DNA from: Desulfosediminicola flagellatus
GTDB taxonomy: Bacteria; Desulfobacterota; Desulfobulbia; Desulfobulbales; Desulfocapsaceae
Direction of reading: 5' to 3'
DNA: 64,000 bases
Assembly (NCBI RefSeq): GCF_005116655.2
Contig: NZ_CP050698.1
Span: 4,628,001-4,692,000, forward strand
Part shown: piece after piece, positions 12,448 through 22,900 of the stretch
Numbering within the stretch: position 1 is the stretch's first letter
How the letters are laid out: each line of letters opens with the position of its first letter
Notes under the pieces: model-generated
What the model saw: only the letters and a program-made list of their open reading frames with translations
Told to the model about the DNA's origin: nothing
Databases searched by the model: none
Position numbers and translations under genes: made by a program

Positions 12448-12624
12448 ATGTCAGAAAAGACCAGAAAACCATGTCCAACCTGTCAGGGAAACAAAGTTAT
12501 TGAAGGCGTTTGTGAAGTGAGTTCAGAATGGCGCGGCAATCAAAACGACGATATTCTTGACGATATGCAATGTACTCCGGATCAGGACTGCCCAACCTGC
12601 AACGGTAAAGGTTACGAAGAATAA
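12448..12624 (+). CDS. Mini-protein with DnaJ-type zinc-finger repeats
   Basis: A 58-residue ORF. AAGGAGCGA sits just before the ATG. It contains CPTCQGNK near residue 10 and CPTCNGKGY near residue 50, two CxxCxGxG-type motifs as in the DnaJ/tryptophan-RNA-binding-attenuator-inhibitor style of zinc finger, with two further cysteines between them. It probably binds one zinc ion. It is followed by a strong terminator and is preceded 60 bases upstream by the Fur-box gene, so both may be one transcript. Function unknown. Confidence 0.7.
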   Translation: MSEKTRKPCPTCQGNKVIEGVCEVSSEWRGNQNDDILDDMQCTPDQDCPTCNGKGYEE

Positions 12625-12893: not shown

Positions 12894-13229
12894 ATGCAGA
12901 TATCACTAATGTACATTAACTTTATACGTTTCTACTGGTTGCGCCTTTTTGGTGCAGTTTTCGCCCTGACCCTTGCCCTGCTTTATCTTACAGGTTTCGA
13001 AGGAATCTCTCTTATCGGCTTCGGTTGCATTGCATTTATAGCTATTTATATAACAATCAGGATTAATAACGGGACGCTGCCTGCCCAGTGTGATCTTTGT
13101 GGATCTAATGGAACCATGAATGCAGAATACGGTGCAGGTTTTTCTAATGCGAGATTGATACTTACCTGTCAAAACTGCGGCAGAGTCGTAAATGGTGCCA
13201 AAGGAAGTGTAAAGCCTCAGAAAGAGTAA
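12894..13229 (+). CDS. Two-TM membrane protein with C-terminal zinc ribbon
   Basis: A 111-residue protein. Two hydrophobic segments at about 14-32 and 36-53 are followed by a cytoplasmic-looking domain with CDLC (about 65-68) and CQNC (about 94-97), a four-cysteine zinc ribbon. The start is ambiguous: ATG 12894 overlaps the AAGGA site, while ATG 12909 lies 14 bases after it and gives a 106-residue product. The stop is 3 bases before the ATG of the selenoprotein gene, so the two are very likely co-transcribed and perhaps functionally linked. I do not recognise the family. Confidence 0.65.
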   Translation: MQISLMYINFIRFYWLRLFGAVFALTLALLYLTGFEGISLIGFGCIAFIAIYITIRINNGTLPAQCDLCGSNGTMNAEYGAGFSNARLILTCQNCGRVVNGAKGSVKPQKE

Positions 13230-13232
13230 TCT

Positions 13233-13850
13233 ATGAAATCAGAGCATGTGCTGGAAATATTTTCGGATTACATCTGACCTTACTGCTATTTCATTACCGG
13301 GAGTATTGAAAAACTGCAGTCAGAATATCGGGTCAATGTTATCTGGCGTGCATTTCCCCTTCATCCGGAAACACCTGAAGAAGGTCGCACCCTTGAAGAA
13401 CTTTTTAAGACTGACACCACTCATATATCGCGCATCATCAGCCAGTTGAAACAGCACGCAGATCAACTCGGTCTACCTTTTGGTGATCGTCACATGACCT
13501 TCAACAGCAGACTTGCTCAGGAGCTTGGTTTATGGGCTGAAGATAAGGGCTACGGGCACGCTTTTCATATGGAAGCCTTCACCCGATATTTTGCCGAAAG
13601 CTGTAACCTTGCAAAGCATGATGAATTGCTGAAAATAGTTGAGAGCTGCAATCTTCCGCGCAATGAAGCTCTGGATGTTATCGCTAACCGTTCCTATAAA
13701 GACGCAGTTGACCGCGACTGGGAAAGATCCCGAAAGATGCAGATAACTGCAGTACCAACATTTATTATTGAAGAATCCCGACTTGTCGGTGCTCAGAATT
13801 ATGCCAACCTTCAGGGGTTAATGCTTCAGCACGGAGTGGTCAAAAAATAA
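13233..13850 (+). CDS. DsbA/FrnE-family thiol oxidoreductase, predicted selenoprotein (Sec at residue 15)
   Basis: Reading from the ATG at 13233, the frame runs 205 residues to 13850 with a single in-frame TGA at 13275-13277. That codon falls exactly on the first active-site position: FSDYI-U-PYC, where DsbA/FrnE (2-hydroxychromene isomerase-like) proteins have a CPxC motif. Downstream residues continue the family pattern: RAFPLHPETPEEG (about 40), then AVPTF (cis-Pro loop) and LVGAQ near the end. The frame on both sides is intact, which argues against a dead gene. A SECIS-like hairpin follows the UGA. There is no signal peptide, so it is probably a cytosolic thioredoxin-fold redox enzyme. 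ORF callers will report only the fragment from 13446. A recent Cys-to-stop mutation is the main alternative. Confidence 0.87.
13282..13320 (+). promoter_or_regulatory. Predicted bacterial SECIS element
   Basis: Four bases after the UGA, ACTGC (13282-13286) pairs with GCAGT (13316-13320), TTTCA (13289-13293) with TGAAA (13307-13311), and TAC (13295-13297) with GTA (13303-13305), leaving the apical loop CGGGA (13298-13302). Bacterial SECIS hairpins lie inside the coding region just 3' of UGA and carry a G among the first two loop bases about 16-37 nt away. Here the G at 13299 is 21 nt from the UGA. Confidence 0.75.
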
Positions 13851-14073: not shown

Positions 14074-14700
14074 TTAGCAGACAGCACTGCCATCCTTCAT
14101 TCGTATTCCATAGCAACACATGTGGTTATCGACCACTGTCTCCACCTTAGACTTTTCACAACCGAAGCCGGAAATAAGAGATTCTGCATAGGCTTTATCC
14201 CCCTTGCCGCTTTTGCAGGCAAGCTGGATTATCTCAATGGGCTCTCCGGCAATAGTTATCTTTGCTGCGGCCTGACTGCGCATCGGCTGATGAAAAATGC
14301 AAAACGGTCCGACACCGGCACCTTGCCCGACGTTAAGTTCCTTTGCCATCCTGCTCTCCGCGTTGAACTCTTCAGTAATTTCCTTAAAACCGGTAGGCTC
14401 AGATGAGAAGAATTCTTTATAGTTACCTGTAAGCTCACCAAACGGGCAATGCTCAAGTCCGAAAACACCATCACCTATATGAACCGCACGACCTTCCAGG
14501 TTTGCCAGTGGAGTCTCACCTTTATCCAGTGCCTCTACAAACGCATCAAACGAGGGGAAATCCTTGGCCTCAACGTTATCGCCAGTGTTCATTGCTATTC
14601 TCATAAGATTTCCTTTGGCAACTTTGACACCGGTGGTATCTACAAGATTACGCAATAAATCTACAAACACAAGGTGGGAAAGGTCTACTGATTTGCTCAT
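14074..14700 (-). CDS. Conserved-looking cysteine-containing protein of unknown function
   Basis: A 208-residue soluble protein without a signal peptide or membrane segment. Cysteines and histidines cluster as HCPFG (about 83-87), FCIFHQP (about 132-138) and HMCCYG (about 193-198) plus a final cysteine, which would suit a metal or cofactor site. A V4R/4-vinyl-reductase-like or ATC-hydrolase-like small-molecule-binding fold is possible but I cannot confirm it. It is a single gene facing the selenoprotein gene (convergent), with terminator-like hairpins between them. Confidence 0.65.
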   Translation of the reverse strand: MSKSVDLSHLVFVDLLRNLVDTTGVKVAKGNLMRIAMNTGDNVEAKDFPSFDAFVEALDKGETPLANLEGRAVHIGDGVFGLEHCPFGELTGNYKEFFSSEPTGFKEITEEFNAESRMAKELNVGQGAGVGPFCIFHQPMRSQAAAKITIAGEPIEIIQLACKSGKGDKAYAESLISGFGCEKSKVETVVDNHMCCYGIRMKDGSAVC

Positions 14701-18680: not shown

Positions 18681-19946
18681 TCAGAAACCACCTACCATAC
18701 GCTGGATCTGAAAATAGTTAGCAAATACCGTTCGTGTAACAGCAACCTCATTCGCCTGGGCGCGCGAGAGGCTGGCAATAGCATCCAGAAGATCGGACTC
18801 ACGCTCAAGACCTTCGTCATATTTAAGCTGAGTTATACGCAGGTTTTCTTCCGCCTGCTCAATTGAACGTTTTGCCACTTCGACGTTTTCAAGGCTTACC
18901 CGGTAATCGATAAAGAGGTTTTGCAGATCGTTCTCAAGCGTTTCTTTAAGCTCTTGCAGGTCATATTGGAGGCCACGTTTTTCAAGTTTTGCCTTTCCAG
19001 TATTGGCCTCCTTGGTGAAACCACGAAAAAGATTCATTGACACCTGAAGCTGGGCGCGAAATTCATCTTCATCATTATCGCCCGCTCCGTTTATGAAATT
19101 ATCGTCATAGCGACTGTAACTGCCAATCAGATCCACATTCGGATAGTAGTCACTGTAAGCAACCTGTACCTGATACTCTGTGGCTTCAACAAGTGTTTCA
19201 AGCGCCTTGATCTCACTTCGCGAGTTGAGCATATTCTGCAGATATTCGTCTTCATTAAGAGGAGCCGGGAGCATTGTGAACTCGGCAAAATCAAGATCAG
19301 CCAACATCATTTGCGCACCTACCTGCCGTGAGAGACTGTTGACACTTTTATCTAACCCAGCCTTCGCTGCCTTCATGGTGATATCGGCATTATCGTAATC
19401 GACCCGGAATTTCAACAATTCGTTTTTTCCTATCAAACCGACATCATAACGATTCTCACCATCACGATACACTCGGGTCAGAGTCTTAAATGCATCTTCT
19501 GTTACCTTGAGGTTAGCCTTGCGATCGTAGACATTGAGATAACTGAGTGCAACTATCAACTGAATATCCTGTCGAGTACCCTGAAGTCTGTACTTTTCCA
19601 CCTCGCTAAGCTGTTCAGCTGAGGCAAGACCATACTTGTCTCTATAACCTGAAAAGATGTTGTAACTGACCTTGCCGGCAAACACGGAATTCTCAGAATC
19701 TTCTCCAGTCAAATTTGATTCATCAAGGCCATTAACGGTATAGAAAACATCCACGGATGGATAATACCCACCCTTTGCCCGTTGCACATCTTTTGCGCTC
19801 TTTTCAACATTAGTCATAAAGCGCTGTACGACCGCACGATTGCCAAGTGCTGTCTGCTGCATGGTTACCAAATCTGTTGCCTGCGCAGATGTACCCAGAC
19901 ATAACAATCCGGCGACACAAACTGCTGATAAAATTCGACTATTCAT
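18681..19946 (-). CDS. TolC-family outer membrane efflux protein
   Basis: About 421 residues from the ATG at 19946, which has GAAAGGAGCAGAGTCA before it. An N-terminal signal peptide (about 1-23, ending TSAQA) is followed by two repeats of the outer-membrane-efflux pattern, long helical coiled coils with FRG-F turns (LQVSMNLFRGF near residue 305). It forms the outer membrane exit duct of a tripartite pump. The ATG overlaps the end of the RND gene by 8 bases, so the two are translationally coupled. Confidence 0.9.
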   Translation of the reverse strand: MNSRILSAVCVAGLLCLGTSAQATDLVTMQQTALGNRAVVQRFMTNVEKSAKDVQRAKGGYYPSVDVFYTVNGLDESNLTGEDSENSVFAGKVSYNIFSGYRDKYGLASAEQLSEVEKYRLQGTRQDIQLIVALSYLNVYDRKANLKVTEDAFKTLTRVYRDGENRYDVGLIGKNELLKFRVDYDNADITMKAAKAGLDKSVNSLSRQVGAQMMLADLDFAEFTMLPAPLNEDEYLQNMLNSRSEIKALETLVEATEYQVQVAYSDYYPNVDLIGSYSRYDDNFINGAGDNDEDEFRAQLQVSMNLFRGFTKEANTGKAKLEKRGLQYDLQELKETLENDLQNLFIDYRVSLENVEVAKRSIEQAEENLRITQLKYDEGLERESDLLDAIASLSRAQANEVAVTRTVFANYFQIQRMVGGF

Positions 19947-22900
19947 TGACTCTGCTCCTTTCAAATCGAATAACAAAAGCTAAAAGTGATGGAATAACAA
20001 ACAACGTCAACACCGTTGAGAGTGCAAGTCCACCCAGAAGGATAGAACCAAGACCTCGATACAACTCACTGCCCGAACCAGTTGATAAAACAAGTGGTGT
20101 CATGGCAAGCAAGCTGGTTGTAGCACTCATAAAAATCGGACGAATACGGGTGCGAACCGCATCTGAAACTGCGGCGATCCCAACCATGCTATTATAACGA
20201 ACGTTATTAAGTGACTGGTGTACAATAAGAATAGCATTATTTACAACAGTTCCAATAAGAATAATGAAACCAAGCATTGCCAATACATCAAATCCCTGCG
20301 GTGCGACAAACGTATTTACCGCAACCAGCCCCACAAAACCTCCAGCTGCAGCCATCGGCACGCTAAAAAGAATGATAAGCGGATAGAGGAAATTCTCAAA
20401 TAATGCTGCCATGAGCAGATAGGTTATCAGCAGCGCCAGCAATAAGTTCCACTTCAATGCCTGACCAGTCTCTTCGAGCTTATCGGCATTACCGCCAATG
20501 CTGATATCCAGTCCCTGCAGCTTACCTTCTTTCTGCATTGGCTCAATAAGACCTTTCTGAATGGTGATCATCGCATCCTGAATAGCCACATTTTTGGGTG
20601 GAGTAACCTGTAGAGTAATGGTCCGTTTTCTCTCAAGATGATTAATCTGGGGCATTCCCTGACTGTATTCAAGATCCGCTACATCACCAAGCTGAATAAG
20701 ATCCCCATGGGCATTAACGATTGTCGCCTTAAGAATCTTCTCAGGTGTGTCGTATAGCTCGTCATTACCTTTTACTACCAGATCTATCTGTTTTACACCT
20801 TCCGGTCTAAAATCATCGACCTTGCGTCCATCCATCAGGATGTCCACATAGACTCCCAGATCACGCTCAGTAAGGCCGTTTGCCGCCAGCATCTCTCTAT
20901 TGGCAATGACCCTGATTTCAGGATAGCTTGTCTCAAAAGATGGCACAGGCCTCACCTGCGAACCTGGTACTGCCTGCATTGTTGCCCCATAGAGCATCAT
21001 GGCTGATCCGGCAATCTCTTCGATATTCTCACCGGAAATATTGACTTCCACCGTTCGCCCCTGACCAAGACCCGTCTCAAAGATACCAGCCTGCAGTGAT
21101 ACACCAAAGAAACCGGGAATTGCGTTCATAATTCTACTGAAAAGCGGAATCAGTTCAGCGGCCCGGGTCTCGTGGGTGCTAATGCCGCCAAAGAGAGTAA
21201 AACGATCGGAACCGACATAAAACATCTGTTTTATCTGCGGGAAACCATCCTTTCCATCTTCTTCAAAATACGGTTTTGTTGATTCAAAAACATATGCCCC
21301 GATCTCTTTAAGCTTATCTACCGAATAGCCCGGAGGCGGAATCAGGATATTTAGAATCAGGTTACGGTTACCCTGTGGCAGATATTCTGCACTTGGCTGC
21401 AACTTTAAAATCATACCCACAGAGAGGGTAGTAAATAGAACTACGGTCAGCAATCGGGTGAAAACATTTTTCAAACAGAGGTCTGAAAACCACATAAGAG
21501 CACCGGCAATTGCCGGTCCGGCAACAGAGCGCTGTATCCAGTTCTTTTTTTCCTCACCTGAGGTTTTTTTCCTGTAGAGGAGATTAATTAATGTCGGGAT
21601 AACAGTAATCGACACCAACAGACTCAGCATAATTGAGAAGGTGATGGCGATAGCGATATCGCGAAAGAGCTGGCCCGCCTCTTCCTGCATAAAGATTACA
21701 GGCAGGAAAACCGCAACGGTTGTGGCAGTTGAAGCAAAAACTGCGCCCCATACCTCATTAGCCCCTTCGAGTGCTGCCTTGAAGGCATTTTTTCCCATTT
21801 TCCTATGCCTGTCGATATTTTCCAGCACAACGATGGAGTTATCAACAAGCATACCGACTGCGAATGAAATTCCGGCAAGACTGACAACGTTTAAACTTCT
21901 ACCCGTCAACCAGAGAAATATAAAACATCCGATAACCGACACAGGAATAGCAACGGCGGTAGTTAGCGTTGAACGGATACTGCGGAGGAAAACCAGCAGC
22001 ACCAGAATCGCAAGTGCACCACCAAGCATTACATTCTTTTTCACCAGACCGATAGCGGTATTAATATATGGCCGCTGGTCATAGACCATGTCGATATAAA
22101 GCTGTTTTTCTGCAAGAATTCCGTCATTAAGCTTCTGAACAGCCTCTTCAACACGATCTGTCATGGCAAGCACGTTGGCTCCCGGCTCTTTACGAACTCC
22201 GACCACGATAACCTGAGTACCGTTATGAAAAACACCTCCCGACTCCTTGTCATAACCAGGAGTCACTTTGGCAATATCACGCAGGTAGACACGTTTGAGG
22301 CCATCATCGAACACCACGACATTAAGTGCATCTTCAGGGTTCTGAAATTGGCCAAGAGTTCGAATACGATAATTCTTTCGACCAATGCCTAACACACCTG
22401 CAGAAGTGGTTGCGTTGGCATTTTTTATGGCACCGGAAATCTGATTAATCGAGATATTATGCCTCGCCATCTCCTGCATATCGAGTGTTACATGCAGTTC
22501 GGCTTCTGTTCCACCGAAAATCAGCAGTGAACCAACCCCCTCAACACGCTCAAGATGCTGGCGCACATTATCTTCAAAGTACGTTCTAAAATTATTTATG
22601 TGATTGGGGTTACCATCCCGCGTTTTAAGCATCGACCAGATAACTGGTGAGCTGTTTGCACCAGCTGCTTCAATCACAGGTTTTTCTGCAGAATCTGGAT
22701 ATCCCGACACCTCATTCATTTTATTGGAAACGCGTAGCAGCGCATCATCAAGTTTGGTGTCCAGAGCAAAAGAGAGCGTCACTTCGCCAAAGTTATTATA
22801 ACTGGCGCTCTCCATTTTCGTCAGGCCCTGCAATCCCTTTAAGGCCTCTTCCTGTTTTTCGATGATATCTTTTTCTATCTCGTAAGGGGTAGCCCCACCC

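Follow-up and report, generated by a model that had tools for sequence, protein, structure and literature searches.

Proteins of the DsbA-like kind with domain PF01323 and a UxxC motif have been catalogued as a family of bacterial selenoproteins since at least 2006 (PMC1794560, PMC2398784, PMC9312934, PMC13188914). Form 1 of this family is listed with PF01323, UxxC and the example NIP15863.1 (PMC13188914, Table 1); it is called 'DsbA 1' in PMC2398784. Judged by the catalogue description, form 1 resembles the protein reported here in its DSBA domain and in a single selenocysteine (Sec, U) that takes the place of the first Cys in CxxC. It likewise occurs in sulfate reducers and marine bacteria. 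The prokaryotic-selenoprotein literature that we found names neither a FrnE-type member or subgroup nor the hairpin described below.

The closest solved fold is that of FrnE from Deinococcus radiodurans (DrFrnE, DR_0659; PDB 5cp1, 5cnw and 5co3), with TM scores of 0.83-0.90 at about 25% identity. DrFrnE is cytosolic and has a CPWC-type motif, with Cys where the present protein has Sec. It also differs in a C-terminal CXXXXC tail, which has been proposed to regenerate that enzyme (PMC8945050). This tail is found in many but not all FrnE members, and FrnE of S. roseofulvus also lacks it (PMC8945050). A second structural relative, SCO1869 of Streptomyces coelicolor (PDB 3gl5), has the same fold (TM 0.88) but only 22% identity and is not known as a selenoprotein. 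Among curated NCBIfam models the best match is NF041057, the Rcas_1661 family of thioredoxin-like (seleno)lipoproteins (DsbG-like), which is also a model of a thioredoxin-fold selenoprotein. With a score of 23.5 bits (cut-off 190) the protein is not a member, and no curated NCBIfam model accepts it above its cut-off.

A predicted selenoprotein gene

The stretch of DNA analysed, referred to as the window, comprises 64,000 nt of the Desulfosediminicola flagellatus genome. Positions 13233-13850 (+) hold a frame of 205 codons that starts with ATG, ends with TAA and contains a single internal stop, the TGA at 13275-13277. Read through this codon, the product reads LEIFSDYI-U-PYCYFITG around the TGA, which stands at the x of a thioredoxin-type x-P-Y-C motif. 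The first-pass annotation had described a frame intact apart from one TGA, placed on the first active-site Cys and followed by PYC; the read-through and the Cys found at this column in paralogues bear out both points. The DSBA domain PF01323 matches the read-through protein with E=2e-31 and 109.7 bits (cut-off 25.6). The protein thus has both the PF01323 domain and the UxxC motif (as UPYC) that define form 1 of the DsbA-like selenoproteins. Together with the orthologues and the fold, the domain match identifies the frame as the predicted gene for a selenoprotein oxidoreductase of the FrnE/DsbA type with 205 residues and the active site U15-P16-Y17-C18.

Comparison with four relatives, three of them congeners and the other also of the TGA type, showed that third-position differences exceed those at first and second positions, both 5' and 3' of the TGA. 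Because they dominate on both sides, both halves of the frame are under selection at the protein level. Standard gene calling at this locus would yield only a 134-aa 3' ORF, which starts at TTG 13446. Gene callers that treat TGA as a stop would shorten this enzyme or drop it.

When the entire window was scanned mechanically for TGA-joined frames, about 20 candidates emerged, including the 13233-13850 frame. On inspection none of them made a convincing further selenoprotein in the window; the other frames look like 5' extensions of ordinary genes, same-frame neighbours or short frames without a recognisable product.

Fold and function

An AlphaFold prediction was computed from a 34-sequence alignment (A2). 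The predicted fold has a pLDDT of 95.9 and a pTM of 0.90. Among solved structures, those of DrFrnE match it best, with 5cp1 at the top of the TM range given above, followed by SCO1869; the best solved chain by sequence is also FrnE (E=5e-12). The protein shares the FrnE fold with an N-terminal CxxC, the first position of which is Sec, and is without the C-terminal CXXXXC tail of DrFrnE. U/C15, P16, C18 and P175 are among the invariant residues of alignment A2, and this alignment contains no conserved Cys beyond U15/C18. Cys18 (13284-13286, +) would be the resolving residue of the UxxC motif. Pro175 (13755-13757, +) lies in an 'AVPTF' loop and is, from the fold class, expected to be a cis-proline that faces the active site. 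The first strand starts too close to the N-terminus for a signal peptide to precede it, and the protein is therefore probably cytosolic.

These features make a cytosolic disulfide reductase or isomerase of the FrnE/DsbA type the likely function. Their best reading is that Sec would serve as the nucleophile and Cys18 as the resolving residue. Alternatively, Sec could be inserted in a protein with another role: a selenol peroxidase, a detoxification enzyme of the DsbA-fold HCCA isomerase/GST kappa type, or a regulator. HCCA isomerase, GST kappa and YjbH are indeed among the next structural neighbours. We consider such a role rather unlikely, since FrnE and SCO1869 are closest in both sequence and fold and since U15 and C18 are both invariant, as dithiol-type chemistry would have it.

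Conservation of the TGA codon

Homologues were searched in 58 relatives and then in 93 genomes of the bacterial family, 43 of which contain one. This recovered 44 close homologues. TGA is present at the Sec codon in 38 of them, one being the gene in the window and the others coming from 37 further species; the remaining six have TGC or TGT there and read CPWC. TGA or a Cys codon is conserved at this site. Each of the close Sec-type orthologues has exactly one in-frame stop, which is always TGA and always at the same codon. According to the first-pass annotation, an alignment should reveal Cys codons at this column, while random stops or frame breaks in close homologues would speak against Sec. 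TGC or TGT does replace the TGA in the six paralogues, and the frames of all 44 homologues are free of other stops.

The same position is occupied by TGA in three more distant paralogues with a UPFC motif (L045, L046, L095) and in a sequence from another bacterial family (L043). Relatives from other phyla (L009-L020) are Cys forms, which is expected as the query itself held Cys. The viral contig L096 gave a 20-base match; it contains no related protein, and the match was dismissed as chance.

All six Cys genes fall into a single clade (support 100/100). This clade is drawn inside the TGA group, a nesting with modest support. Three genomes (G024, G096, G098) carry both the Sec and the Cys form.

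The hairpin downstream of the UGA

A predicted bacterial SECIS core hairpin, UUCA-U-UAC(CGGGA)GUA-U-UGAA, is located at 13290-13310 (+). Its apical loop CGGGA (13298-13302) contains GG and lies 20 nt after the TGA. The U-U mismatch at 13294/13306 is kept in all 38 TGA genes. An outer stem starts 4 nt after the TGA in this sequence, and the relatives are without it. The first-pass annotation had proposed a hairpin 4 bases after the TGA with a G-containing loop; the paired arms and the G loop were confirmed, but the stem at 4 nt is not kept and the conserved core is that at 13290-13310.

Several observations indicate that this element is maintained. The mean entropy of synonymous codons in the 38 TGA sequences is 0.37 bits at codons 19-26 versus 1.53 outside the hairpin (Mann-Whitney p=3e-5), and the three variable hairpin pairs are all intact in 36 of the 38 TGA genes and in 3/3 distant TGA paralogues but in 0/6 Cys genes (Fisher p=4e-6); both p-values overstate the independence of the data, because the sequences are related. 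Codons 20-23 are nearly frozen in the TGA genes, where TTC, ATT, ACC and GGG are each found in 37/38. For Gly23 this GGG compares with a share of only 20% among Gly codons further along these genes. The fifth loop position is the most freely varying base; it changes the residue between Ser, Arg, Gly and Cys and leaves the following GT unchanged. Across 18 distinct sequences 93.7% of the cells are paired, as opposed to 24-56% when the pairing partner is slid. Compensatory changes occur at three of the seven hairpin pairs (A-U to G-C, U-A to C-G and C-G to A-U).

The published bSECIS model asks for a loop of 3-9 nt with a G among its first two nucleotides, a distance of 16-37 nt from the UGA and an MFE of at most -7.5 (PMC13188914). 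The hairpin in the window agrees with this model: it has a 5-nt loop with G in second place, a distance of 20 nt and a folding energy of -10.1 kcal/mol, a value that includes the outer stem; the core alone is weak, at -2.6 kcal/mol. Rfam has no matching element at the hairpin. RNAfold prefers an alternative stem, CCUGGU/ACCGGG, for many relatives. It cannot form in the UPYC members, including this one, and was rejected because the UUCA-UUAC/GUA-UUGAA hairpin instead forms in nearly all.

The distant Sec-type UPFC paralogues, which belong to other genera (L045:1483-2085, L046:1453-2064 (-), L095:1450-2076 (-)), have a hairpin of different sequence at the same offset. In these hairpins GGG opens the loop, and compensated pairs keep the structure.

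The sequence 5' of the Sec codon is also constrained. The codon before the TGA (13272-13274 in the window; orthologues L022-L039, L074-L092) ends in TC in 37/38 cases, and 34 of the 35 Ile codons at this place are ATC, whereas ATC makes up 36% of Ile codons further along the genes. This pattern suggests that UGA decoding may have a 5' context requirement in addition to the downstream hairpin.

Selenocysteine machinery and decoding of the UGA

The genome was searched for the Sec machinery, a check that the first-pass annotation had called for, and selB, tRNA-Sec and two selD genes were found. SelB is full (368 bits), and the tRNA-Sec (selC) has the anticodon UCA (75.9 bits). The two selD genes (L047 and L048; genome positions 353922-354845 and 677220-678149) each have an in-frame TGA in a GxUxxK-type (UxxK) motif; because of these TGA codons the genome holds other known selenoproteins. 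No match to selA was obtained in the genome, but the gene that relatives carry after selA abuts a run of N here. In relatives, selA adjoins sequence that is either N or similar to 16S rRNA. An archaeal-type Sec pathway was considered as an explanation for the missing selA and rejected, as SepSecS was absent from the genome search and the expected place of selA is the N stretch.

Taken together, the TGA/Cys column, the hairpin, the fold and the presence of SelB, SelD and tRNA-Sec make it almost certain that Sec is inserted at TGA 13275. Could the TGA be read as tryptophan in an altered code, or by plain readthrough with a near-cognate residue? TGA-C is a leaky termination context, and C invariably follows the TGA. 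Such decoding is nevertheless highly improbable: homologues show Cys and never Trp at this column, genes in the window end in TGA (e.g. the TolC-like ORF 18681-19976), only TGA genes retain the hairpin, and the genome has SelB, SelD and tRNA-Sec. A decaying pseudogene with an ordinary nonsense mutation would fit a frame that is interrupted by a stop and called only as its 134-aa 3' part, but it is practically excluded by the same stop at the same codon in 38 genomes, by the excess of third-position changes on either side, by amino acids that stay while codons vary, by the frozen hairpin and by the common TGA/Cys column, which refutes it.

For the Sec reading we propose the following mechanism. 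SelB with Sec-tRNA(Sec) would bind the downstream hairpin as the ribosome meets UGA 13275, and Sec would be inserted in place of termination. The selenium of U15 would attack a disulfide, or the enzyme itself would be oxidised through U15; in either event U15 and Cys18 could form a selenenylsulfide. A thioredoxin- or glutathione-type reductant would presumably recycle the enzyme.

Relation to known selenoproteins

The protein is a new, well-supported member of the known DsbA-like UxxC kind. The novelty is smaller than the first-pass annotation implied, because 'DsbA-like UxxC' has already been catalogued (PMC13188914). More tentatively, the Sec genes of this bacterial family might represent a distinct, previously unseparated subfamily of FrnE-type Sec oxidoreductases, which would have an unusually rigid signal of NTC-UGA-C plus the U-U hairpin and would have given rise by duplication to a Cys paralogue without the signal. 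Under this duplication reading, both forms were retained in some genomes, such as G024, G096 and G098.

The coexistence of Sec and Cys paralogues within certain genomes, where the Sec copy keeps the SECIS and the Cys copy has lost it, offers a clean natural experiment. The family is a good reference for the rules of bacterial SECIS elements and for what Sec brings to a disulfide reductase.

Gene neighbourhood

The first-pass annotation had seen novelty in this member and in a partner gene; the former stands as a new member, and the latter fails. The proposed partner (12894-13229, +) encodes a 111-aa protein with a hydrophobic stretch and CxxC pairs, for which there is no Pfam family. Its stop codon lies 3 nt before the ATG of the selenoprotein gene, and the two genes are probably cotranscribed. 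The 111-aa gene adjoins the selenoprotein gene in only the four genomes of the genus, and it was rejected as a partner on this ground. No specific partner is supported by the neighbourhood.

A gene for a 58-aa protein with two CxxCxG-like motifs (12448-12624, +) has tblastn matches beside 15 orthologue loci, the window included. The protein has no family in Pfam and is conserved between TrmO and the selenoprotein gene in several genera; the TrmO gene is itself a neighbour in several genera. On the other side, the window encodes a 208-aa protein (14074-14700, -) that matches nothing in Pfam or NCBIfam and that is also found beside the orthologue in a congener (G001).
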